Origin: an uncultured Paracoccaceae bacterium | GTDB taxonomy: Bacteria > Pseudomonadota > Alphaproteobacteria > Rhodobacterales > Rhodobacteraceae | Direction of reading: 5' to 3' | NCBI GenBank assembly: GCA_947489705.1 | Contig: CANLEQ010000008.1 | Coordinates: 1-64,000, forward strand | Length of the DNA: 64,000 nucleotides | Shown here: one piece after another, positions 1,703 through 23,678 of the stretch | How positions within the stretch are numbered: the stretch's first letter is position 1 | Layout: every line of letters begins with the position of its first letter | The notes under the pieces: generated by a model | Database searches by the model: none | Told to the model about the DNA's origin: nothing | The model's input: only the letters and a program-made list of their open reading frames with translations | Translations under genes and position numbers: made by a program

Positions 1703-2869
1703 ATGACGTTCAGGAAACTGGCTTGGGCAATTCTGGCCGCGGTCGCCATCGCAGCACCCGCGCGAGCGCAATTCGACACCAGCGCGACGTCCGCCTTCGT
1801 CTACGACATCGGCACCGAGACGGTCCTGATGGCCAAGCAGGCCGACGTGCCGCTGCCGCCGGCGTCGATGTCGAAACTGATGACGCTCTACATGCTGTTC
1901 GACGCGCTCCGCGATGATCGGGTCAGCATGGATACCCGGTTCGGCGTGAGCTCGCGCGCAGTGGCGCTTGGCGGGTCGTCGATGTACCTGACCGAGGCGG
2001 ACCGCCCCACCGTCGAGGAGCTGATCCAGGGCATCATCGTGCAATCCGGCAACGATGCCTGCGTCGTGGTGGCCGAGGGCCTGGCGGGAAGCGAGGAGGC
2101 CTTCGCGACGATGATGACCCAGCGCGCCCGCGAGATCGGCATGACCCAGTCGACATTCGCCAACGCGTCGGGATGGCCCAATCCCCAGCATCGCATGTCG
2201 ATGCACGATCTCGGCGTTCTCGCCACGCATCTTATCACCGAATTTCCGGAATATTACGGATACTTCGCGCAGAAGACATTCGCCTTCGACGGTCGGGTTC
2301 CGGCCAATCACCGGAACCGCAACCCGCTTCTGGGTCTCGGCATCGGTGCCGACGGGCTCAAGACCGGCCACACGACCGAGGCGGGATACGGGCTCGTCGG
2401 TTCCGCCACCCAGGGCGACCGGCGCATCGTCTTCGTGATCAGCGGGATCGATTCCGAAAAGGCGCGTGCCGAAGAGGCGGAGCGTATCGTGAACTGGGCC
2501 TTCCGCCAATTCGTCGAAAAGCAGATCGTGTCGCGCGGCCAATCCGTGGCCACGGCCGATGTCTGGCTGGGGGCCGAGGGAAAGGTCAATCTCGTGGCGG
2601 AGCGCGACACCGGGATGCTCGTGCCGGCTCTCTCGCAGGACAGTATCGCCGCCGAGGCGCTCTTCACCTCGCCCATCGAGGCGCCTATCGCGGAAGGCCA
2701 GGAACTCGGCACGCTCGTGATCCGCGTCGAAGGCCTTCCCGATACCGAGATGCCGCTTCTGGCCGATCGGTCCGTTGCCGCGGCCGGTTTCGTGCCGAGG
2801 CTCAGGACGGCGGCCGGCGTGCTGCTGCAACAGGTCATCGGGGCCGCCGGCGCCGCCGTTTCGGAGTGA
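1703..2869 (+). CDS. dacC: D-alanyl-D-alanine carboxypeptidase (PBP5/6 type, peptidase S11)
   Basis: It trims the terminal D-Ala from peptidoglycan pentapeptides in the periplasm. The 388-aa product has a signal peptide (MTFRKLAWAILAAVAIAAPARA) and all three penicillin-binding motifs: SMSK at 55-58 with nucleophile Ser55, SGN at 115-117, and KTG at 220-222. A C-terminal beta-rich domain with an amphipathic tail follows, as in membrane-associated PBP5. The ATG at 1703 is preferred over 1667 because the signal peptide starts there and GAGGAAGAG sits just upstream. Its stop overlaps the tmk start (TGATG), so the two are probably translated together. Confidence 0.93.
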   Translation: MTFRKLAWAILAAVAIAAPARAQFDTSATSAFVYDIGTETVLMAKQADVPLPPASMSKLMTLYMLFDALRDDRVSMDTRFGVSSRAVALGGSSMYLTEADRPTVEELIQGIIVQSGNDACVVVAEGLAGSEEAFATMMTQRAREIGMTQSTFANASGWPNPQHRMSMHDLGVLATHLITEFPEYYGYFAQKTFAFDGRVPANHRNRNPLLGLGIGADGLKTGHTTEAGYGLVGSATQGDRRIVFVISGIDSEKARAEEAERIVNWAFRQFVEKQIVSRGQSVATADVWLGAEGKVNLVAERDTGMLVPALSQDSIAAEALFTSPIEAPIAEGQELGTLVIRVEGLPDTEMPLLADRSVAAAGFVPRLRTAAGVLLQQVIGAAGAAVSE

Positions 2870-3480
2870 TGCCGCGGGGCCAGTTCTACAGCTTCGAGGG
2901 CATCGACGGATCGGGAAAGTCCACCCAGGCGAAGCGTCTGGCGGATCTTCTGCGCGCGCGGGGTAGGGATGTCGTGCTGACGCGCGAGCCCGGCGGGTCC
3001 CAGGGGGCCGAGGATATCCGGCGCCTGGTGCTCGAAGGCGATCCCGAGCGATGGTCCGCGGAGACGGAGCTTCTGCTCTTCACCGCCGCGCGACGGGATC
3101 ACCTCGAGCGGACGATCCTCCCGGCTCTGGACCGGGGCGCGGTGGTGGTCTGCGACCGGTTCGCCGACAGCACGCGGATGTATCAGGGGCTGTCCCGCGG
3201 GGATCTGCGCGGCACGGTCGACGCGTTGCACGGCATGATGATCGGGATCGAGCCGGACCGGACATTCCTGATCGACATGGACCCGTCAAAGGGACTTGCC
3301 CGTGCCCTGTCGCGCCGGGGCGGCGAAGAGCGGTTCGAGACGTTCGGCATGGAGCTGCAGATGCGCATGCGCGACGGGTTCAGGGATCTCGCGCGCGAAT
3401 TTCCGGACCGCATCGTCGTGATCGACGGCGATCGCGCCCCGGCCGACGTCGCGGCGGCGGTCGCGGCCGCGCTTCCATGA
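2869..3480 (+). CDS. tmk: Thymidylate kinase
   Basis: It phosphorylates dTMP to dTDP for DNA synthesis in the cytoplasm. The 203-aa product has the P-loop EGIDGSGKST at residues 10-19, the TREPGGS motif that follows, and the DRFADS motif that contacts the nucleotide. The length is typical of bacterial Tmk. The ATG overlaps the dacC stop by one base (TGATG at 2867-2871), and its own stop overlaps the holB start by four bases. This gives a tightly coupled dacC-tmk-holB run, and tmk-holB adjacency is a common bacterial arrangement. Confidence 0.96.
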   Translation: MPRGQFYSFEGIDGSGKSTQAKRLADLLRARGRDVVLTREPGGSQGAEDIRRLVLEGDPERWSAETELLLFTAARRDHLERTILPALDRGAVVVCDRFADSTRMYQGLSRGDLRGTVDALHGMMIGIEPDRTFLIDMDPSKGLARALSRRGGEERFETFGMELQMRMRDGFRDLAREFPDRIVVIDGDRAPADVAAAVAAALP

Positions 3481-4601
3481 GCGACGCGGACCTCTACGAG
3501 CCCGATCGGGTCGAGGGCGTCGCGCATCCGCGCATGACCCCTGTGCTCTACGGGCAAGAGGAGGCCGAGGCCGCGTTGCTCACGGCCTTCGGCTCGGACG
3601 CGATGCACCATGCCTGGCTTCTGACGGGGCCGCGCGGGGTCGGCAAGGCGACGCTCGCATGGCGGCTGGCACGGTTCCTGCTGTCGCAACCACATGGCGA
3701 TCAGGGACTGCTCGCCGCGGATCCGCCACGAACCCTCGACACCCCGCCCGACCATCCCGTTGCCCGGCGCGTGGCCTCGCTCGGCGAGCCGCGGCTCTTC
3801 CTGATGCGGCCGACGATCAACCCCGCGACAGGCACGCCGCGCCGCGACATCACGGTCGATCAGTCCCGCAGGCTCAAGGAGTTCCTGCATCTCAGCGCCG
3901 CCGACGGAGGCCAACGCGTCGTTCTGATCGACAGCGCCGACCAGATGAACGTCGCGACGGCCAATGCGCTCCTGAAACTGCTCGAGGAGCCGCCCGCGCT
4001 CACCACCTTCGTGCTGGTGAGCCACGCACCCGCGGGCCTTCTGCCGACCATCCGGTCGCGGTGTCGCGTGCTTGCCTGCCGCCCGCTCGCGCCCGCCGAC
4101 CTCGCCGCGGCGCTGGACCAGGCGGGCCTCGACACGGAGGTCTCGCCGATGGTTCTGGCGCAGCTCGCCTCCGGATCGGTGGGCGAAGCCGCGCGGCTCT
4201 TGCAAGAGGACGGGCCGGCCCTCTATGCGCGGCTGGTCGGCCTCTTCGCACCCTGCCCCGACATGGACCGGCAAGCGTTGCTGGCGCTGACCAACGGCCT
4301 TGCCGGTGCGGCCGGCCAGGCACGGATGGATACGCTCGTCCGGCTGATCGAGCTGATGCTGGCGCGACTGGCGCGCTACGGCGCCGGCGCCACCCCCGAG
4401 GCCGAGGCCGCGAAGGGCGAGGCGCAGATGCTGGCCCGGCTTGCCCCCGATGCCGAGGCCGCGCGCCGGTGGGCCGCGTTGCACCAATCGGCGGGTGCGC
4501 GCCTTTCGCAGGGGCGGCGGGTCAACCTTGACCCCTCCTCGCTCATCCTTGATACCGGGGCGAGCATCAACGACACGGGCCGCGCCATTCTGGCGCGTTA
4601 G
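3477..4601 (+). CDS. holB: DNA polymerase III subunit delta'
   Basis: This is a clamp-loader subunit (374 aa). An AAA+ N-terminal domain carries the P-loop GPRGVGKAT near 51-59. The segment VVLIDSADQMNVATANALLKLLEEPP follows, and then SRC (in IRSRCRVLACRPL), the arginine-finger motif of this family. The C-terminal helical part is less conserved. The zinc-binding cysteines found in some clamp-loader subunits are not evident between the P-loop and Walker B. The ATG overlaps the tmk stop (ATGA), supporting translational coupling. Confidence 0.92.
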   Translation: MSDADLYEPDRVEGVAHPRMTPVLYGQEEAEAALLTAFGSDAMHHAWLLTGPRGVGKATLAWRLARFLLSQPHGDQGLLAADPPRTLDTPPDHPVARRVASLGEPRLFLMRPTINPATGTPRRDITVDQSRRLKEFLHLSAADGGQRVVLIDSADQMNVATANALLKLLEEPPALTTFVLVSHAPAGLLPTIRSRCRVLACRPLAPADLAAALDQAGLDTEVSPMVLAQLASGSVGEAARLLQEDGPALYARLVGLFAPCPDMDRQALLALTNGLAGAAGQARMDTLVRLIELMLARLARYGAGATPEAEAAKGEAQMLARLAPDAEAARRWAALHQSAGARLSQGRRVNLDPSSLILDTGASINDTGRAILAR

Positions 4602-4621
4602 GCCCGGTTTCTCGGGGCCCC

Positions 4622-5419
4622 ATGACACCCATCATCACCGACAGCCATTGCCATCTGGACTTTCCCGATTTCGAAGGCGAGCGCGATGCGATCGTCGCCC
4701 GCGCCGTCGAGATGGGGGTGGCGCGCATGGTCACGATCTGCACGAAGCTTCGCCAGGCGGCGGAGGTGCGCGCCATCGCCGAGGCCCACGATCCGGTCTT
4801 CTGGGCCGCGGGCACCCACCCGATGAGCGCCGCTTCCGAGCCGATGGTCGCGGTCGAAGAGCTGGTGGCGCTTGCCCGGCACCCGAAGATGGTCGGGATC
4901 GGCGAGACCGGGCTCGACTATCATTACACCGCCGACAGCGCCAAGGTGCAGCAGGAAAGCCTCCGCCTCCATATCGAGGCGGCGCGGCGGACGGGCCTGC
5001 CGCTCATCATCCATGCACGCGACGCCGACGACGACATGGCCCGCATCCTGACCGAGGAACATGGCGCGGGGGCCTATCCCTGCGTGATGCACTGCTTTTC
5101 GTCCAGCCGCGCTTTGGCCGAGACCGCCCTCGATCTGGGGTTCTACCTGTCGATGTCAGGCATTGCCGCCTTTCCCAAGAGCGGCGATCTGCGCGAGATT
5201 TTCGCCGCCGCGCCGCTCGACCGCATCCTGGTCGAGACCGACAGCCCCTATCTCGCCCCGCCGCCCCATCGCGGCAAGCGCAACGAGCCCGGCTTCACCG
5301 CCCACACCGCCCGTGTCGGGGCGGAGACGTTCGGCATGGACTACGCGGATTTCGCCGCCGCGACCGAAGCGAATTTCGAGCGGCTGTTTTCCAAGGCCGC
5401 CGCGTGGACCCCTGCATGA
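4622..5419 (+). CDS. tatD: TatD-family metal-dependent hydrolase / DNase
   Basis: The 265-aa TIM-barrel hydrolase has the SHCHLD metal-binding motif at residues 8-13 (His9 and His11). The family signatures GETGLDY, IHARDAD, MHCFSSS and ETDSPYLAPPPHRGKRNEP follow in the expected order. Family members have 3'-5' exonuclease or D-tyrosyl-tRNA deacylase-like activities; the precise substrate cannot be read from sequence. It starts 20 bp after holB. The holB-tatD-MBL order is a conserved block in alphaproteobacteria. Its stop overlaps the next gene's ATG by four bases. Confidence 0.92.
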   Translation: MTPIITDSHCHLDFPDFEGERDAIVARAVEMGVARMVTICTKLRQAAEVRAIAEAHDPVFWAAGTHPMSAASEPMVAVEELVALARHPKMVGIGETGLDYHYTADSAKVQQESLRLHIEAARRTGLPLIIHARDADDDMARILTEEHGAGAYPCVMHCFSSSRALAETALDLGFYLSMSGIAAFPKSGDLREIFAAAPLDRILVETDSPYLAPPPHRGKRNEPGFTAHTARVGAETFGMDYADFAAATEANFERLFSKAAAWTPA

Positions 5420-6213
5420 GCGAGCTGCGCTTCACCATTCTGGGGTGCGGATCGTCGGGCGGCGTGCCGCGTCTCGGCGGCATCTGGGGCGATTGCGATC
5501 CCGAGAACCCCAAGAACGCGCGCCGGCGCTGCTCCCTGCTCGTCGAACGCCTCGGTCCCGACGGCACGACACAGGTGCTGATCGATGCCTCGCCCGATCT
5601 GCGCTCGCAGCTTCTCGATGCCGGGATCGGACGTCTCGACGGTGTGGTCTTCACCCATCCCCATGCCGATCATTGCCACGGCCTCGACGATCTGCGGATG
5701 GTGGTCTTCAACACGCGCGCGCGACTTCCGGTCTGGGCCGACGGCCCCACCGGCGAGAGCCTGCTCGGGCGGTTCGGATACGCCTTCCGCACGCCGCCTG
5801 GATCGAGCTATCCGCCGATCCTCAACCTCAACCCGATCGAGGGGCCGGTCCGGATCGAAGGCCCCGGCGGCGCCGTCACGCTGGAGCCGTTCCGCGTCGG
5901 CCACGGGGGCATCACGGCGCTGGGCTTTCGCATCGGCGGGCTCGCCTATCTTCCCGATGCCTCCGATATCGGTGACGAGGGATGGTCCGCCCTCGAAGGG
6001 CTCGACATCTGGATCGTCGACGCGCTGCGCCGGGATCCGCATCCGAGCCATTCGCACCTCGCCAACACTCTGGGCTGGATCGAACGGGCCGCGCCGCGGC
6101 GGGCGGTCCTGACAAACATGCATGTCGACATGGATTACGAGACCGTCCGGCTCGAGACGCCCGACCATGTCACGCCCGCCTTCGACGGGATGGTCCTGAG
6201 CTTGCGGGAATGA
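5416..6213 (+). CDS. MBL-fold metallo-hydrolase (PhnP-like phosphodiesterase family)
   Basis: The 265-aa metallo-beta-lactamase-fold protein carries the metal motif HPHADHCHGLDD near residues 78-89 and later ligands in GLAYLPDAS and DALRRDPHPSHSH. The N-terminal GCGSSGGVPR and the HxHxDH loop match the PhnP-like branch, whose members hydrolyse cyclic phosphodiesters. No phosphonate genes are nearby, so a C-P lyase role is not supported. It is coupled to tatD upstream and to the AEC transporter gene downstream by 4-bp ATGA overlaps. Confidence 0.85.
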   Translation: MSELRFTILGCGSSGGVPRLGGIWGDCDPENPKNARRRCSLLVERLGPDGTTQVLIDASPDLRSQLLDAGIGRLDGVVFTHPHADHCHGLDDLRMVVFNTRARLPVWADGPTGESLLGRFGYAFRTPPGSSYPPILNLNPIEGPVRIEGPGGAVTLEPFRVGHGGITALGFRIGGLAYLPDASDIGDEGWSALEGLDIWIVDALRRDPHPSHSHLANTLGWIERAAPRRAVLTNMHVDMDYETVRLETPDHVTPAFDGMVLSLRE

Positions 6214-7136
6214 GCGCCCTCATCGACGTGGTGCTGCCGGTCTTCCTGGTGATGGGGGCCGGATACCTCGCGACGTGGCGCAACCTTTTTTCCGACAGTG
6301 CGGTCGACGGGTTGATGGCATTCACCCAAGGGTTCGCCATCCCCTGCCTGCTCTTTCGGGCCATCGCCACGCTCGATCTCGGGGCCGAGTTCAGCTGGCC
6401 GATCCTGCTGCCCTTCTATCTCGGCGCGATCGCCGGCTTCTGCACGGGACTGTTCGGCGCCCGTGCCTTCGGTCGCAACTGGGAGGATTCGGTCGCGATC
6501 GGGTTCTGCGGGCTGTTCTCGAACTCGGTGCTGCTGGGACTGCCGATCGCCGAGCGCGCGTTCGGCACCGACAGTCTGCGCTTCAACTATGCCATCATCG
6601 CGGTCCATGCGCCGTTCTGCTATCTGCTCGGCGTATCGGTGATGGAACTGGTCAACGCGCGCGGCCAGTCGCTCATCGGCCTGCCGGGCAAGGTCACGCG
6701 GGCGATGTTCCACAATTCGCTGGTGATCGGGATCGCCCTCGGCTTCGTGGTCAACCTGACGGGACTGCCTCTCCCGCGGCTGCTCGACGACGCGCTGCAG
6801 ATGATGATCCGCGCGGCGTTGCCGGCGGCGCTCTTCGGCCTCGGGGGGATCCTCTACCGCTACAAGCCCGAAGGCGATCTGCGGCTGATCGGGCTGGTCT
6901 GTTTCTGCTCGCTGATCCTGCATCCGGCCGTGACCTACGGGGTCGCGACCGCATTGGGGCTCGGCGTCGTGCCGCTGCGCGCCGCCGTCATCACGGCGGC
7001 CATGGCACCGGGGGTCAACACCTACATCTTCGCCAATATCTACGATTCCGCCAGGCGCACCGCCGCGTCGGGCGTGCTTGTCGGAACGGGAATGTCGATC
7101 CTCAGCGTCTGGATGTGGCTCCTGATCCTGCCCTAG
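6210..7136 (+). CDS. AEC (auxin efflux carrier) family transporter
   Basis: The 308-aa integral membrane protein has about ten hydrophobic segments in two halves, starting MSALIDVVLPVFLVMGAGYLA, which is typical of the AEC/Mdc family. Family members export or import organic anions such as malonate or malate; the substrate is not predictable here. The ATG overlaps the upstream stop (ATGA), so it is the last gene of the dacC-to-AEC run. Its stop overlaps by four bases the stop of the convergent ABC permease gene on the other strand. Confidence 0.85.
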   Translation: MSALIDVVLPVFLVMGAGYLATWRNLFSDSAVDGLMAFTQGFAIPCLLFRAIATLDLGAEFSWPILLPFYLGAIAGFCTGLFGARAFGRNWEDSVAIGFCGLFSNSVLLGLPIAERAFGTDSLRFNYAIIAVHAPFCYLLGVSVMELVNARGQSLIGLPGKVTRAMFHNSLVIGIALGFVVNLTGLPLPRLLDDALQMMIRAALPAALFGLGGILYRYKPEGDLRLIGLVCFCSLILHPAVTYGVATALGLGVVPLRAAVITAAMAPGVNTYIFANIYDSARRTAASGVLVGTGMSILSVWMWLLILP

Positions 7137-18893: not shown

Positions 18894-19445
18894 TCAGAGT
18901 CCGTCGCGCGCCACCAGCTGCGCCAGATCGTCGATCGCCTGCGCCTTGGCCGCGGCGATGCCCGAAGCGGTGGAGGCCGCGATCGGCACGCTCAGGTCGA
19001 AGCGACGCGCGGTATCGCCGCGCGTGCCGTCGGTCGATGCCACGAAATACTGCCCCGCGATGCGATAGTGCCCGGTATTTTCCGGCAGGGCGCGGGTGAA
19101 CCGCACTTCGAGCCGCGCATCCGGCGTCTCGTAGAAGGGCCAGGGCTCGGCCGCGACGCGGGCGCGGGTCAGGGCGGCCAGCCGGAAGGCGAGCCCTTCG
19201 GTAAAGGCCCGCCGCGGGTCGTCGGCCCAGAGCAGGTCGGAATCGCTGACGAGCGCGCCGGTCTCGTCCTCGACATAGATGACTTCCTGGCTGGCATAGG
19301 TCGGCAGCGACACGTCGCGCACCTCGACCGAGCCGTAGCTTACCGGGATGCGCCCCGTCTCGGGAACGGGGGGCAGCTCGTAGCGCAGCGGCTCGCCGCC
19401 ACAGGCACCGAGAAGGAGAGCAAAGGCGAGGGCAAAGCGTTTCAT
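18894..19445 (-). CDS. pqiC: ABC-type transport auxiliary lipoprotein (PqiC)
   Basis: The 183-aa outer-membrane-type lipoprotein has the signal MKRFALAFALLLGAC with lipidated Cys15. A DUF330/PqiC domain follows (LRYELPPVPETGRIPVSYGSVEVRDVSLPTYASQEVIYVEDE). It would anchor the PqiB tunnel to the outer membrane. Its start lies one base after the pqiB stop, and the order pqiA-pqiA-pqiB-pqiC is complete. An upstream start (19565) adds 40 Arg-rich residues and is rejected. Confidence 0.88.
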   Translation of the reverse strand: MKRFALAFALLLGACGGEPLRYELPPVPETGRIPVSYGSVEVRDVSLPTYASQEVIYVEDETGALVSDSDLLWADDPRRAFTEGLAFRLAALTRARVAAEPWPFYETPDARLEVRFTRALPENTGHYRIAGQYFVASTDGTRGDTARRFDLSVPIAASTASGIAAAKAQAIDDLAQLVARDGL

Positions 19446-19446
19446 G

Positions 19447-22302
19447 TCACCGTCCGAAGAGAAGGGAATTTGGGGCGCGCTCGATCTGGCGCGCCAGCGA
19501 ATTGATGGAGGATGCCGCTTCCTGAACGTCGCGCAGGGTGCTGCGCGCCTGCGACCCGAGCGCACCGTTGGCCTCGTAGCCCGAGATCACCGTCTCGGTC
19601 TGCGCCAGAAGCTCGCTTGTGCTGGTAAGCAGCGCCGGAAGCTGGTCCGAGGCGCGGCGGATCGCATCCGCAGCCTCTTCGGCCGAGGCGAGCGTCTGGT
19701 TCGCGCTGTCCACCAGACCGCCCTCCTGGATTTCGATCAGAAGCCGCTGAACCTCTTCCAGCGCATTGGCGAGCGCACCCGGGACACGCTGCGTATCCTC
19801 GGACGAGACGAGGTCGTTGGCCGATGTCACGAGTTCCGAGACCCGCGCCGAGAGCTCCTCGATCGGGATCTGCGTGGCCTCGCTTGTCAGAGCCTCGATA
19901 TCCTCGGCGATGCGGTTGGCGCGCTCGACGACCTCGGGCGCGTTGTCGGCGGCGATCGCCACCGAATTGGCCGCGCGTTCGGCCTCGGTCAGCACGGCCT
20001 GAAGCTGCAAGGTCAGATCCGTGACCGCCGTCTCGGCAGTGGCGAGCGTCTGCGTCGCCTGGTCGAGAACGCCGCCATCGACGATTTCGTCCATGACACC
20101 GCGCGCCGCGGCGAGCGTCTCGTTGATCTGCCCCGGCACCGCCTGGGTTTCGGCGCGGGTGACCAGAAGGTCGAGATCGGCGACGAGATCGTTGACGTTC
20201 GCGACCACCTGGTCGAGCGGCAGCGTGTCGAGGTCGGTCACGAACGCCAACAGGTCGCGCGACAGCGTGTCGATCCCGCGCAGCAATCCCGGCACCTCGT
20301 CGAGGCTGTCCTGCGCATTCGCGACCGCCAACCGCGCCTCGGCCAGAAGCGGGTTCAATTCGCCCGCAAGGTTCGTGACCACGCCGCGCAGATCGACCAG
20401 CGTCGCCTCAGCTGTCTCCACGAGGCCCGCCGCGCGGATTTCCTCGATCAGACCGTCGACCTGGTTGAGCAGGCTCGACACGTCGCCGGTCAGGCCCTGC
20501 GTGGCGGGATCGGCAAGCAGCGTCCGCAAGGCCGCGATCGAGCCTTCGGTCTCCTCCACCACGGATTGCAGCGGCAGGTCGTTCACCGAGTTGATGAGCT
20601 GATCCAGACTGGCGACGGCCGCGTTGATCTCGGCCAGGGTCGCCGGCACCTCGTCCACGGCGACGAACACCGCATTGGCCGCATCCTCGGCGGCGTCGAG
20701 GGCCGCGACGAGCTGTTCCACCGCGCCCGCTTCGCGCAGTTCGCCCACGACGCCCTGAAGGTCCTGCGCCGTCTGGTTGAGGGTGAGCATGAGGTCGTTG
20801 GCCTGATCGGGAAGCCCCTGCACGCCATCGGACCCCACGAGGCTCCGGACCGCAGAGAGGATGCCCAGCACTTCGGACGGGGTCTCGCGCACGCCTTCGT
20901 CGTTGAGGATCGCGTTGGCGCTCGACATGAGGGCGATGGCGTTGTTCAGCACCTCCTCGATGGGCAGGTTGTTGACCCGGTTGAAGACGCCCTGGGCGGT
21001 ATCGGTGAAATCCGAGATGTCGCCCGGAATCGACGGGATGCGCGGATAGGGCTCGGCATCCATGACGAGGCTCGCATCCTCCACGTTGTCGAGCTGCACC
21101 AGCCCAACCTGCAATCCCCCGAGGAGCGAGGCGCTCTGCAACTGCGCGCGCAGCCCGTTACGCACTGCGAACTCGAAGAAATCATAGACCGTTTCCTCGT
21201 CGGCCTCGCCTTCGAGCCCGAGATTGCCCGGCTGGATCTCGATCGTCACCAGAAGCCGGATCTCGCGATCGCCGAACCTCTCCTCGTCGAGCAGACCGGT
21301 CAGCGCGTCGATCCGCCCGACCGAGATGCCGCCGAAATCCACGTCGGCCCCGACCTCCAGGCCCGCCACGGTGTCGTCGAAGACGACGGAGAAGAGTACC
21401 GGTTCGCCGCTGAACGCATCGCCGAACACCGAAGAACGCGCGGTGTCCTCGTCTCCGTAGAGCGTGAACACGCTTTCGGGCGTGACCTCCTCGCCGCCGG
21501 AGACGGTCGTGGCGAAACTGATCCCGCCCGAGACCAGCGACGCGATCGACGCCACGTCGAGCCGCGCGCCCTGCGCGCCGAAGCTGAAGGTGAAGCCCGA
21601 CGTGTCCCAGAACCGTGTCGAACTCGTGATCAGGCGCGCTTCGGGTTCGCGGACGAACCCGTCGGCAAGGACCGACGTGCCGTCGGGGCCAAGCCGCAGG
21701 TTGGCGATCTGTCCGACCTCGATGCCGCGGTAGTAGATCTTGGTGCCTTCGGACAATCCCTCGACGGAATCGCCGCGCAGCTGGAAGGAGATCCCCTCCT
21801 GCCCGTACCGGACGAGCGGCGCGGCACTCACACCGTCGAAGACGCGCTCGGGTTCGCCGATGACGCTGTCCCAGTCGCCCTCGATATAGACGCCGCTCAG
21901 CACGGTATCGAGCCCGGCCACCCCTTGGGCGGAGACTTCGGCGCTGACCACCCAGAACTCGGCATCCTCGTCGATGTATTCCGCGACATTCTGGTCGACG
22001 CGGATCTCGGCCACAACCTGTTCGAGATCGTCGGAAAACTGGACCGCCTCGACCACGCCCACCACCACGTCGCGGTATCGAAGCTGGGTCTCGTCGGCCC
22101 GGACGCCCGACGCGTTCTCGAACGCCACCTCGATCAGGGGGCCGCGATCCGCGTAATTCTGCCACACGACATAGAGCGAGATGACCAGCGCCAGGACCGG
22201 CACCATCCAGACGATCGACAGGCGCGACAGGATCGACCGGCGGGCCTTGCGCAATTCGGGTGCGGCGGCACCGGCGCTCGAGCGGGACGGGTCGTCGGTC
22301 AT
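19447..22302 (-). CDS. pqiB: MCE-domain protein PqiB with extended repeat region
   Basis: The 951-aa protein is anchored by one N-terminal TM (about 29-48: LSIVWMVPVLALVISLYVVW). Three MCE domains follow, roughly 54-150, 165-270 and 297-400, with typical motifs such as YYRGIEVGQIANLRLGPDG and FGGISVGRIDALTG. The remaining 520 residues are helical and consist of four related units of about 118-130 aa beginning LPIEEV (446), LPLQSV (576), LPLDQV (694) and IPIEEL (812). E. coli PqiB has about 546 aa, so the periplasmic needle is far longer here. It should form a lipid conduit between the inner and outer membranes. Confidence 0.9.
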   Translation of the reverse strand: MTDDPSRSSAGAAAPELRKARRSILSRLSIVWMVPVLALVISLYVVWQNYADRGPLIEVAFENASGVRADETQLRYRDVVVGVVEAVQFSDDLEQVVAEIRVDQNVAEYIDEDAEFWVVSAEVSAQGVAGLDTVLSGVYIEGDWDSVIGEPERVFDGVSAAPLVRYGQEGISFQLRGDSVEGLSEGTKIYYRGIEVGQIANLRLGPDGTSVLADGFVREPEARLITSSTRFWDTSGFTFSFGAQGARLDVASIASLVSGGISFATTVSGGEEVTPESVFTLYGDEDTARSSVFGDAFSGEPVLFSVVFDDTVAGLEVGADVDFGGISVGRIDALTGLLDEERFGDREIRLLVTIEIQPGNLGLEGEADEETVYDFFEFAVRNGLRAQLQSASLLGGLQVGLVQLDNVEDASLVMDAEPYPRIPSIPGDISDFTDTAQGVFNRVNNLPIEEVLNNAIALMSSANAILNDEGVRETPSEVLGILSAVRSLVGSDGVQGLPDQANDLMLTLNQTAQDLQGVVGELREAGAVEQLVAALDAAEDAANAVFVAVDEVPATLAEINAAVASLDQLINSVNDLPLQSVVEETEGSIAALRTLLADPATQGLTGDVSSLLNQVDGLIEEIRAAGLVETAEATLVDLRGVVTNLAGELNPLLAEARLAVANAQDSLDEVPGLLRGIDTLSRDLLAFVTDLDTLPLDQVVANVNDLVADLDLLVTRAETQAVPGQINETLAAARGVMDEIVDGGVLDQATQTLATAETAVTDLTLQLQAVLTEAERAANSVAIAADNAPEVVERANRIAEDIEALTSEATQIPIEELSARVSELVTSANDLVSSEDTQRVPGALANALEEVQRLLIEIQEGGLVDSANQTLASAEEAADAIRRASDQLPALLTSTSELLAQTETVISGYEANGALGSQARSTLRDVQEAASSINSLARQIERAPNSLLFGR

Positions 22303-22946
22303 CCGGAAAGGCTTTCCCTGTTGGTGTCCCAGATCATTCGGGGATCGAAACTCTGTGCCGCCAACATGGTAAAGATCACCGATAAGGCGAACGTGATCGC
22401 CGCCGGTCCCGGATTGATGGAAGCTGCGAAATTTAGCTGCACCAGCGCCGACAGGATGGCAACGACAAACACGTCGATCATCGACCATCTGCCGATGAAT
22501 TCGACCACTTCGTAGAGTTTGTGCCGGCGATGCGGCTCCATCGACAGGGGTTTGGCGACCGAATAGGCGAGCCACGCGATTGCAACGAACTTGCCGACGG
22601 GGATCATCACAGACGCCACGAAGATGACGATCGCGATCCCGACCGCGCCATGGGACGCGAGTTCGATCGCGCCCTCGATGATGGTGTCGTCGGAGGAATT
22701 GAAGAGCACGCGCGTCCTGAGCATCGGATAGACGTTGGCCGGAATGTAGCAGATCATGCCGACGGCGAGCCAGGCCCAGACCCTTTGCAACGATCCCCGG
22801 TCGCGCGAGCGCAGGGCGGTGCCGCAGCGCGCGCACCGGTCGGTGCCGATGGGCCAGACCCGCGTGCACCTCGTACAGGCGACCAGCCCCTCCTGCCGGG
22901 CGGTGACTAGGGGCGTCTGTCTTCCAGTGTCTTCCATATTGTCCAT
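22299..22946 (-). CDS. pqiA: Paraquat-inducible protein A-type membrane protein (second copy)
   Basis: The 215-aa protein has a rubredoxin-like zinc ribbon (CTRC at about 24-27 and CARC at about 38-41) and then four TM helices. The PqiA signature IPANVYPML is present, with a FASVMIPVGKF-like third helix. It overlaps pqiB by four bases and the first pqiA by 40 bases. E. coli has these two halves fused in one protein; here they are separate genes. The start could be ATG 22946 or ATG 22937. Confidence 0.87.
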   Translation of the reverse strand: MDNMEDTGRQTPLVTARQEGLVACTRCTRVWPIGTDRCARCGTALRSRDRGSLQRVWAWLAVGMICYIPANVYPMLRTRVLFNSSDDTIIEGAIELASHGAVGIAIVIFVASVMIPVGKFVAIAWLAYSVAKPLSMEPHRRHKLYEVVEFIGRWSMIDVFVVAILSALVQLNFAASINPGPAAITFALSVIFTMLAAQSFDPRMIWDTNRESLSG

Positions 22947-23548
22947 CTGCACATCGTTGCGTCCTGCAGGACGATCACCACCACGAGGCCCGCGAACATC
23001 CAGAAGGCGGGACCGTATTCCACCCGCGCCAGATCGCTGACCTTCACGAGCGCCACGGCCACGCCGATCACGAAGATCTCGGCCATCGACCACGGGCGCA
23101 GATCCTCCGACCAGCGGAACGCGCGGCGCGCCCCCGGCCAGGGCCTGCGTCCCAGCGCCAGCGGCGCGATCACGTAGACGACGAGCGCCGCACGCGCCGC
23201 GGGGATCAGCACGATCAGCGCGGCGACCGCGACCGACAGGCCCATCATCCAGCCCCCGTCGACGAAGGCCAGTGCCGCGTCGAAGACCGAGGCCCGGTTC
23301 GTGATGCCCTGCGCATTGATCCCGAGAAAGGGAAAGAACGTCGCCCCGAACATCAGGATCATCACCGTCACGGCCAGCGCCACGATCCGCCCGAACGCGC
23401 CGCTGCGCGGTGCGATCAGGACGTGGTGGCATCGCCGGCACATGATCCGCTCGCCCGATGCAGGCTCGCGCGCCACGTAGAGCGCGTCGCATTGCGGACA
23501 GGCGATCAGCTCTTCCAGATCCGGATCGTCACTTGCGATATCGGCCAT
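22907..23548 (-). CDS. pqiA: Paraquat-inducible protein A-type membrane protein (first copy)
   Basis: The 213-aa protein has an N-terminal zinc ribbon (CPQC ... CRRC), four TM helices and the family motif TFFPFLGINAQGITN. It is the first gene of the four-gene pqi operon on the minus strand. ATG 23548 is favoured; a GTG at 23566 would add six residues. PqiA proteins are inner-membrane partners of the PqiB conduit and probably load or unload lipids. Confidence 0.86.
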   Translation of the reverse strand: MADIASDDPDLEELIACPQCDALYVAREPASGERIMCRRCHHVLIAPRSGAFGRIVALAVTVMILMFGATFFPFLGINAQGITNRASVFDAALAFVDGGWMMGLSVAVAALIVLIPAARAALVVYVIAPLALGRRPWPGARRAFRWSEDLRPWSMAEIFVIGVAVALVKVSDLARVEYGPAFWMFAGLVVVIVLQDATMCRWTIWKTLEDRRP

Positions 23549-23678
23549 GCGCGGGCCCCGCTTCACCTGCCCGCCGATCGCGGGCCATCGGCATATTGCT
23601 TAGTCGGATCAACGGGCAAAGACCAGCCGCCGGCCGCTCACGTCTGCGCGGGCCGCCGCCCCGGGGACCGGGCCTGCG

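Follow-up and report, generated by a model that had tools for sequence, protein, structure and literature searches.

The window analysed here, a 64,000-nucleotide stretch of DNA from an uncultured Paracoccaceae bacterium, encodes on its minus strand a PqiB of 951 aa with three MCE domains, whose tail appears to have arisen by fourfold tandem multiplication of the helical unit that ends ordinary PqiB. Among relatives, the tails made of such units fall into discrete length classes, are kept in register and are still being duplicated, and their length covaries with that of TamB, which is the surprising part. We give about even chances to the reading that the units form a modular stalk and that their number, alongside TamB length, is selected in each lineage to fit the distance bridged.

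The gene belongs to a pqiA1-pqiA2-pqiB-pqiC cluster lying on one strand, with two genes carrying a PqiA domain (PF04403) upstream and a pqiC-like gene (PF03886) downstream (Table 1). Over 22299-23566 of the minus strand, PqiA is divided between two genes that overlap and each carry a single PqiA domain, whereas it is one gene in E. coli. Against the NCBIfam model NF008070 (PqiB, PRK10807), the protein scored 368.8 bits over residues 23-517, below the curated cut-off of 525 bits, and it was therefore filed as PqiB-type only and not as an NF008070 equivalog. The PqiB-type assignment is based on three PF02470 stretches above the cut-off behind an N-terminal helix, the neighbouring genes and the region behind the third MCE domain, in which DSSP applied to the AF2 model gave helices across most of residues 432-949 with modest confidence. 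Membership in LetB/YebT would require seven MCE domains, and three were found; the protein is a variant of PqiB and does not represent a new system. Judged by named relatives, the window belongs to Palleronia; the nearest of them was Palleronia pontilimi (71% in the best segment, with the match spanning residues 1-951). PqiB was the sole protein with PF02470 matches in the window's Palleronia genome, where no MlaE match was obtained; MlaE was likewise not found in two further sampled genomes of the genus (G066 and G324).

Table 1. Features of the pqi cluster in the window, with positions counted from its first nucleotide.
Feature	Positions	Strand	Basis or remark
pqiB coding sequence without stop	19450..22302	-	951 aa; stop codon 19447-19449
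N-terminal hydrophobic helix, residues 30-51	22150..22215	-	AF2 helix, hydrophobicity judged by eye; presumed membrane anchor
MCE domain 1 (PF02470)	21913..22143	-	E 9.2e-11
MCE domain 2 (PF02470)	21613..21795	-	E 1.1e-9
MCE domain 3 (PF02470)	21097..21387	-	E 8.8e-6
Helical unit 1, residues 446-575 (130 aa, with insertions)	20578..20967	-	Self-alignment and unit HMM
Helical unit 2, residues 576-693 (118 aa)	20224..20577	-	Self-alignment and unit HMM
Helical unit 3, residues 694-811 (118 aa)	19870..20223	-	Self-alignment and unit HMM
Helical unit 4, core residues 812-904	19591..19869	-	Self-alignment and unit HMM
C-terminal cap, residues 905-951	19450..19590	-	Last residues ARQIERAPNSLLFGR; tail ends, alignment
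pqiA second half, separate gene (PqiA domain, PF04403)	22299..22946	-	E 1.6e-50
pqiA first half, separate gene (PF04403)	22907..23566	-	E 1.7e-37; overlaps next gene
pqiC-like lipoprotein gene (PF03886)	18894..19445	-	E 5.8e-24; start picked by eye at MKRFALAFALLLGACGG

The first-pass annotation had described four related units behind three MCE domains, and both parts were borne out: the motifs LPIEEV, LPLQSV, LPLDQV and IPIEEL begin at residues 446, 576, 694 and 812, and three PF02470 stretches precede them. Its comparison with a protein of about 546 aa in E. coli was also correct (K-12 pqiB, 1013259-1014899, 1641 nt, 546 aa), and the TQxxPG-like segment it had assigned to three of the four units occurs in units 2-4 only. 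In the self-alignment it had proposed as a check, all six unit pairs scored above all 1000 composition shuffles. Five of the six also exceeded all 1000 shuffles in which the hydrophobic/polar pattern was kept; for unit 2 against unit 4, 5 of these 1000 shuffles came up to the observed score. According to the seed alignment, the core repeat has about 93 aa, within which one site accepts 23 or 30 aa and another 18, while the end accepts 7; unit 1 carries about 30+7 residues beyond the core, and units 2 and 3 about 18+7 each. A unit profile of 92 positions, built from units of several proteins, retrieved four copies from the window, three of them broken into two matches by insertions. The repeats of the window are old, the one pair of full-length HMM matches compared being 28% identical. 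Cap-like ends of the form IER-x-PNSL-x-x-GR were common to most of the relatives listed in the alignment of tail ends.

Tails outside the family were short. In the class and phylum samples, full-length open frames were mostly 540-620 aa among the matches listed, and ten PqiBs from outside the family (seven with longer frames, two ordinary ones and that of E. coli) had tails of 89-168 aa. The seven longer frames (645-981 aa) had been candidates for independent expansions, and all seven proved to be upstream frame extensions with tails of 89-152 aa. Pattern-kept shuffles of 105 tails yielded 42 domains at E < 1e-3, the best at 6.6e-8, so weak matches to the unit HMM carry no meaning. Four of the ten outside tails beat the best shuffle (L128, 2e-9; L129, 4e-13; L130, 2e-8; and E. 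coli, 1e-8, which is little better than that shuffle), and the remaining six may be homologous to the unit, judging by position and size. One exception was found, a protein with a 404-aa tail of three units (L179) in a record named Pararhizobium mangrovi (Rhizobiaceae). Its nearest proteins are two Puniceibacterium PqiBs, to which it is 62% identical, and of its 10463 bases only the pqi cluster, at about 2779-7070, matches other loci that were retrieved. This cluster was probably acquired by horizontal transfer, and mislabelling or contamination could also account for it. Since the outside tails are short with this one exception, the expansion of units is a trait of this family in our sample.

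PqiB matches were obtained in 56 of the 149 sampled genomes of the family and, across the order sample, in 162 of 292 genomes, where 3 matches were weak. With the tail counted from the residue equivalent to 420 onward, the 105 complete family tails fell into classes of 165-195 aa (6 tails, about one unit by HMM), 258-295 aa (52, about two), 365-404 aa (22, about three), 481-534 aa (15, about four) and 560-688 aa (10, about five to six). Exactly 281 aa was the length of 31 of them. Eight units, in an 881-aa tail, were counted in the named relative Oceanicola granulosus. Where two tails differed by a single gap, the commonest sizes were 7, 93, 116, 23 and 100. Among the 283 gaps in 144 nearest-neighbour pairs, which are not independent events, 7 was the commonest length (58 gaps); multiples of 7 numbered 76 and lengths of 1-4 numbered 55. 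Tails of exactly 531 aa occurred in nine distinct proteins from several genera, including that of the window (L072 and L139, with identical tails and equally long contigs, were counted as one genome, giving nine and not ten), and the other eight aligned to the window tail without gaps at 41-72% identity. The register of the tails is strictly kept, and tail dN/dS values of about 0.27-0.54 (NG86, four comparisons) indicate that the tail is under purifying selection. At the amino acid level, two neighbouring units of L107 were 100% identical and two of L194 were 97% identical; tandem duplication was thus recent in these two, and units are still being duplicated. On the most economical account, unit number would be gained by tandem duplication and retained where it fits the envelope. 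In one genome (G022; L060 and L061), PqiB was present in fragments, perhaps a decayed gene or assembly errors.

In this trans-envelope system of the PqiABC type, which presumably transports lipid, the units would form a modular, probably hexameric stalk and putative lipid conduit leading from the three-MCE barrel at the inner membrane to PqiC at the outer membrane. The first-pass annotation had expected a much longer needle. The repeats are real and occupy the place of the E. coli needle, and tails outside the family are one unit in size; the part that was not supported is a needle that is straight and longer in proportion. As one straight helix, the window tail would measure about 800 Å (531 aa × 1.5 Å) and the 881-aa tail about 1300 Å, compared with a periplasm of 27.3 nm in Rhodobacter sphaeroides (PMC10470753). 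A straight helix of about 800 Å cannot fit a periplasm of such ordinary width (about 270 Å); if the carriers have a periplasm of this kind, the units must rise far below 1.5 Å per residue. Reported values for E. coli are about 230 Å for PqiB, with a straight needle, and 21-27 nm for the periplasm (PMC10897342).

In the AF2 monomer of the window protein (38 sequences), the mean pLDDT of ten-residue blocks of the helical tail ranged over 37-84, and for a relative with a 281-aa tail (44 sequences), the tail was likewise helical with block means of 39-81. The helices break near conserved LP, TQxxP, GG and (V/L)P sites, and prolines inside the units are invariant or nearly so in the alignment. In VIA-align, talin rods and four-helix bundles matched parts of residues 514-624 and 740-918 with Z of 10-12, values that the tool describes as common for helical models. 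The modelled tail resembles helix bundles in parts, with modest confidence; membership among talin/spectrin-like rods would call for antiparallel bundles in each repeat. Couplings from mean-field and pseudolikelihood analyses were mainly local; in 529 units (Neff 467), 41 of the 46 top pairs lay within 7 residues, and there were peaks at i+3/i+4. Antiparallel ridges expected of hairpin contacts at motif-defined turns were not significant (27th-90th percentile). The MCE domains served as a weak positive control, as their depth was low (Neff 137-160) and, among pairs at least 6 apart, their long-range fraction was not above chance. Gaps of 7 residues and local couplings suit continuous helices, and AF2 gives partial bundles. 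The predominance of 7 among gap lengths, the nine distinct proteins keeping 531-aa tails and the coupling peaks speak for a rod in which all units join in a single unbroken parallel six-helix coiled coil, longer than that of E. coli by a factor of several; the invariant or nearly invariant prolines, the predicted breaks near them and the dimensions given above argue against such a rod, which we consider unlikely. The units probably do not extend as one straight helix, and the simplest alternative would be that they double back at conserved Pro/Gly breaks and pack as short bundles of helices.

TamB, a presumed bridge across the gap that PqiB would span, and the YhdP-like protein, also a presumed bridge of the envelope, were used as length proxies. 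From the 56 family genomes with PqiB, two were left out (G022 with fragments and G147 with a contig end), and of the other 54, 52 had a TamB whose length could be read from a conserved motif near the N-terminus; G013 and G065 yielded no such motif, another frame having been taken for G065. Tail length and TamB length were correlated (rho 0.574, p 9e-6, n=52), more strongly for tails of at least 250 aa (rho 0.774, n=46). TamB length rises with GC (rho 0.39), and the partial correlations on GC were 0.60 and, for tails of at least 250 aa, 0.75. Phylogenetic contrasts gave r of 0.64 with the tree of PqiB MCE parts and r of 0.56 with that of TamB, both at a permutation p of 0.0005; as the signs of the contrasts agreed in only 34 of 51 and 31 of 51 cases, respectively, large contrasts carry this result. 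A second set was taken from the order listing, in which 51 genomes were picked for spread and nearness, not at random, and one had no TamB match. In the remaining 50 genomes, whose TamB lengths were exact in 20 cases and stop-to-stop frames in 30, rho was 0.688 (p 3e-8), with contrasts at r 0.61 (p 0.001) and a rank correlation of contrasts of 0.38 (p 0.006). The named set, 10 of whose 80 tails are identical to tails in the other sets, was kept out of the TamB test.

When the genomes were classed by tail length, median TamB length rose from 1320 aa for two units (n=51) through 1445 for three (n=21) and 1593 for four (n=14) to 1822 for five to six (n=10), and the six single-unit genomes (median 1531) were off this trend. 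Tail length was uncorrelated with the length of the MCE part (rho 0.11), with GC (rho 0.06) and with the YhdP-like open frame (rho 0.03, n=45). The YhdP-like protein was matched in 47 of 53 genomes, 27 of them above the family cut-off, with lengths taken as stop-to-stop frames and G087 and G133 left out for contig-edge or C-terminal-only matches. The comparison of repeat number with periplasm width that the first-pass annotation had called for was thus answered, by length proxies, positively with TamB and negatively with the YhdP-like protein. The latter result, the single-unit class and the modest agreement of contrast signs are the main facts against a fit of the stalk to envelope width. The genome with a TamB of about 3158 aa had a 560-aa PqiB tail (L260, G054). 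The tamB and pqiB matches lie near each other in three genera, at a distance of about 1.2-1.3 kb and on the same strand in g173 (G339, G197, G302 and G201), of about 3 kb in g105 (G105 and G301) and of about 15-19 kb in g24 (G023, G392, G226 and G165), which suggests a functional link.

For tails of at least 250 aa, the slope was 1.39 TamB residues per tail residue (1.13-1.67). E. coli TamB has 1259 aa. The span quoted for E. coli TAM is 200 Å (PMC10897342). Together, these values give a rough calibration of about 0.2 Å per PqiB residue, or about 26 Å per 118-aa unit, which is far below a straight helix and presupposes that PqiB and TamB cross one and the same gap. On the same assumption, a tail gaining about 0.7 residue per TamB residue is mismatched with a rod rising 1.5 Å per residue. 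A stronger reading, which we regard as possible but somewhat short of even, is that the number of PqiB units (1-8) and the length of TamB are co-adjusted to the distance between the membranes by a fixed folded step of a few nm per unit, so as to act as a natural ruler, with the inner-to-outer membrane distance varying by a large factor among Roseobacter-type lineages, for which, as for other alphaproteobacteria, no Lpp spacer is known.

Two further accounts bear on the covariation. Longer PqiB and TamB could hold more lipid or flex more with the width of the envelope unchanged, both proteins lengthening in lineages with a higher lipid flux or larger cells. The constant length of the YhdP-like protein is in favour of such a gain in capacity, as are reports implicating both PqiB and TamB in phospholipid transport (PMC12800296), but capacity alone does not explain discrete, gap-free unit lengths, and we think it improbable. 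Alternatively, duplications of little function might accumulate by neutral or lineage-specific drift, with TamB following by ancestry or by a general expansion of repeats. Very recent duplications are indeed present and single-unit proteins lie off the trend; however, a gapless fixed tail length over several genera, purifying selection on the tail, contrasts that stay at about r 0.6 with either tree and again in the second set, and the lengths of the MCE part and the YhdP-like protein, which do not follow the tail, make drift the least likely of the accounts, with only a slim chance of being right.

The idea that loss of Mla led to long tails was rejected, because tails of 281 aa also occur in genomes of the order sample that have no MlaE (e.g., G236 = L090); the five MlaE-less PqiB carriers of the family sample had tails of 381-688 aa. 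As a separate observation, PqiB matches were found in 32 of the 34 genomes without MlaE and in 130 of the 258 with MlaE in the order sample (Fisher p 2.4e-7), where counts were read by eye, 3 of the 130 were weak matches and the statistics ignore kinship. Pqi may stand in for Mla.

A natural PqiB series of 1 to 8 steps, tied to the length of TamB, bears on whether PqiB, LetB and TamB truly reach across the periplasm in cells, and on the determinants of periplasm width in alphaproteobacteria, in which there is no known Lpp homologue (PMC10470753). In the titles and abstract openings of the open-licence papers listed by our searches, we found neither repeated PqiB units nor a covariation of TamB and PqiB lengths.

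Among the closest known systems, E. coli PqiB (PDB 5uvn) likewise has three MCE domains, a C-terminal helical tail and pqiA and pqiC as neighbours. It matches residues 52-446 of the window protein in sequence (E 8e-49), and no other structure matched the model of that protein better (Z 21.0, rmsd 14.7, 378 aligned). Its tail of about 141 aa has the size of one unit, in contrast to 531 aa and four units in the window. E. coli LetB/YebT, also a sequence match (E 3.8e-67), resembles the window protein in building an MCE tunnel from a repeated module, with seven MCE rings (PMC12436622); LetB repeats the MCE rings, whereas the window PqiB keeps three MCE domains and repeats the helical unit. MlaD of Veillonella parvula (PMC10665443) and MpcD of Brucella (PMC12436622) are MCE proteins whose long C-terminal helices have been proposed as bridges across the envelope, and the length of the MlaD model, about 23.5 nm, agrees with a periplasm measured at 24.2 nm (PMC10665443). 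Both differ from PqiB in having a single MCE domain and ABC-transporter partners, and no tandem unit is described for them in the parts of these sources consulted. TamB is alike in being a candidate conduit for lipids across the envelope and in having a length that covaries with the PqiB tail, and differs in its unrelated beta fold and its partner TamA (PMC12800296).
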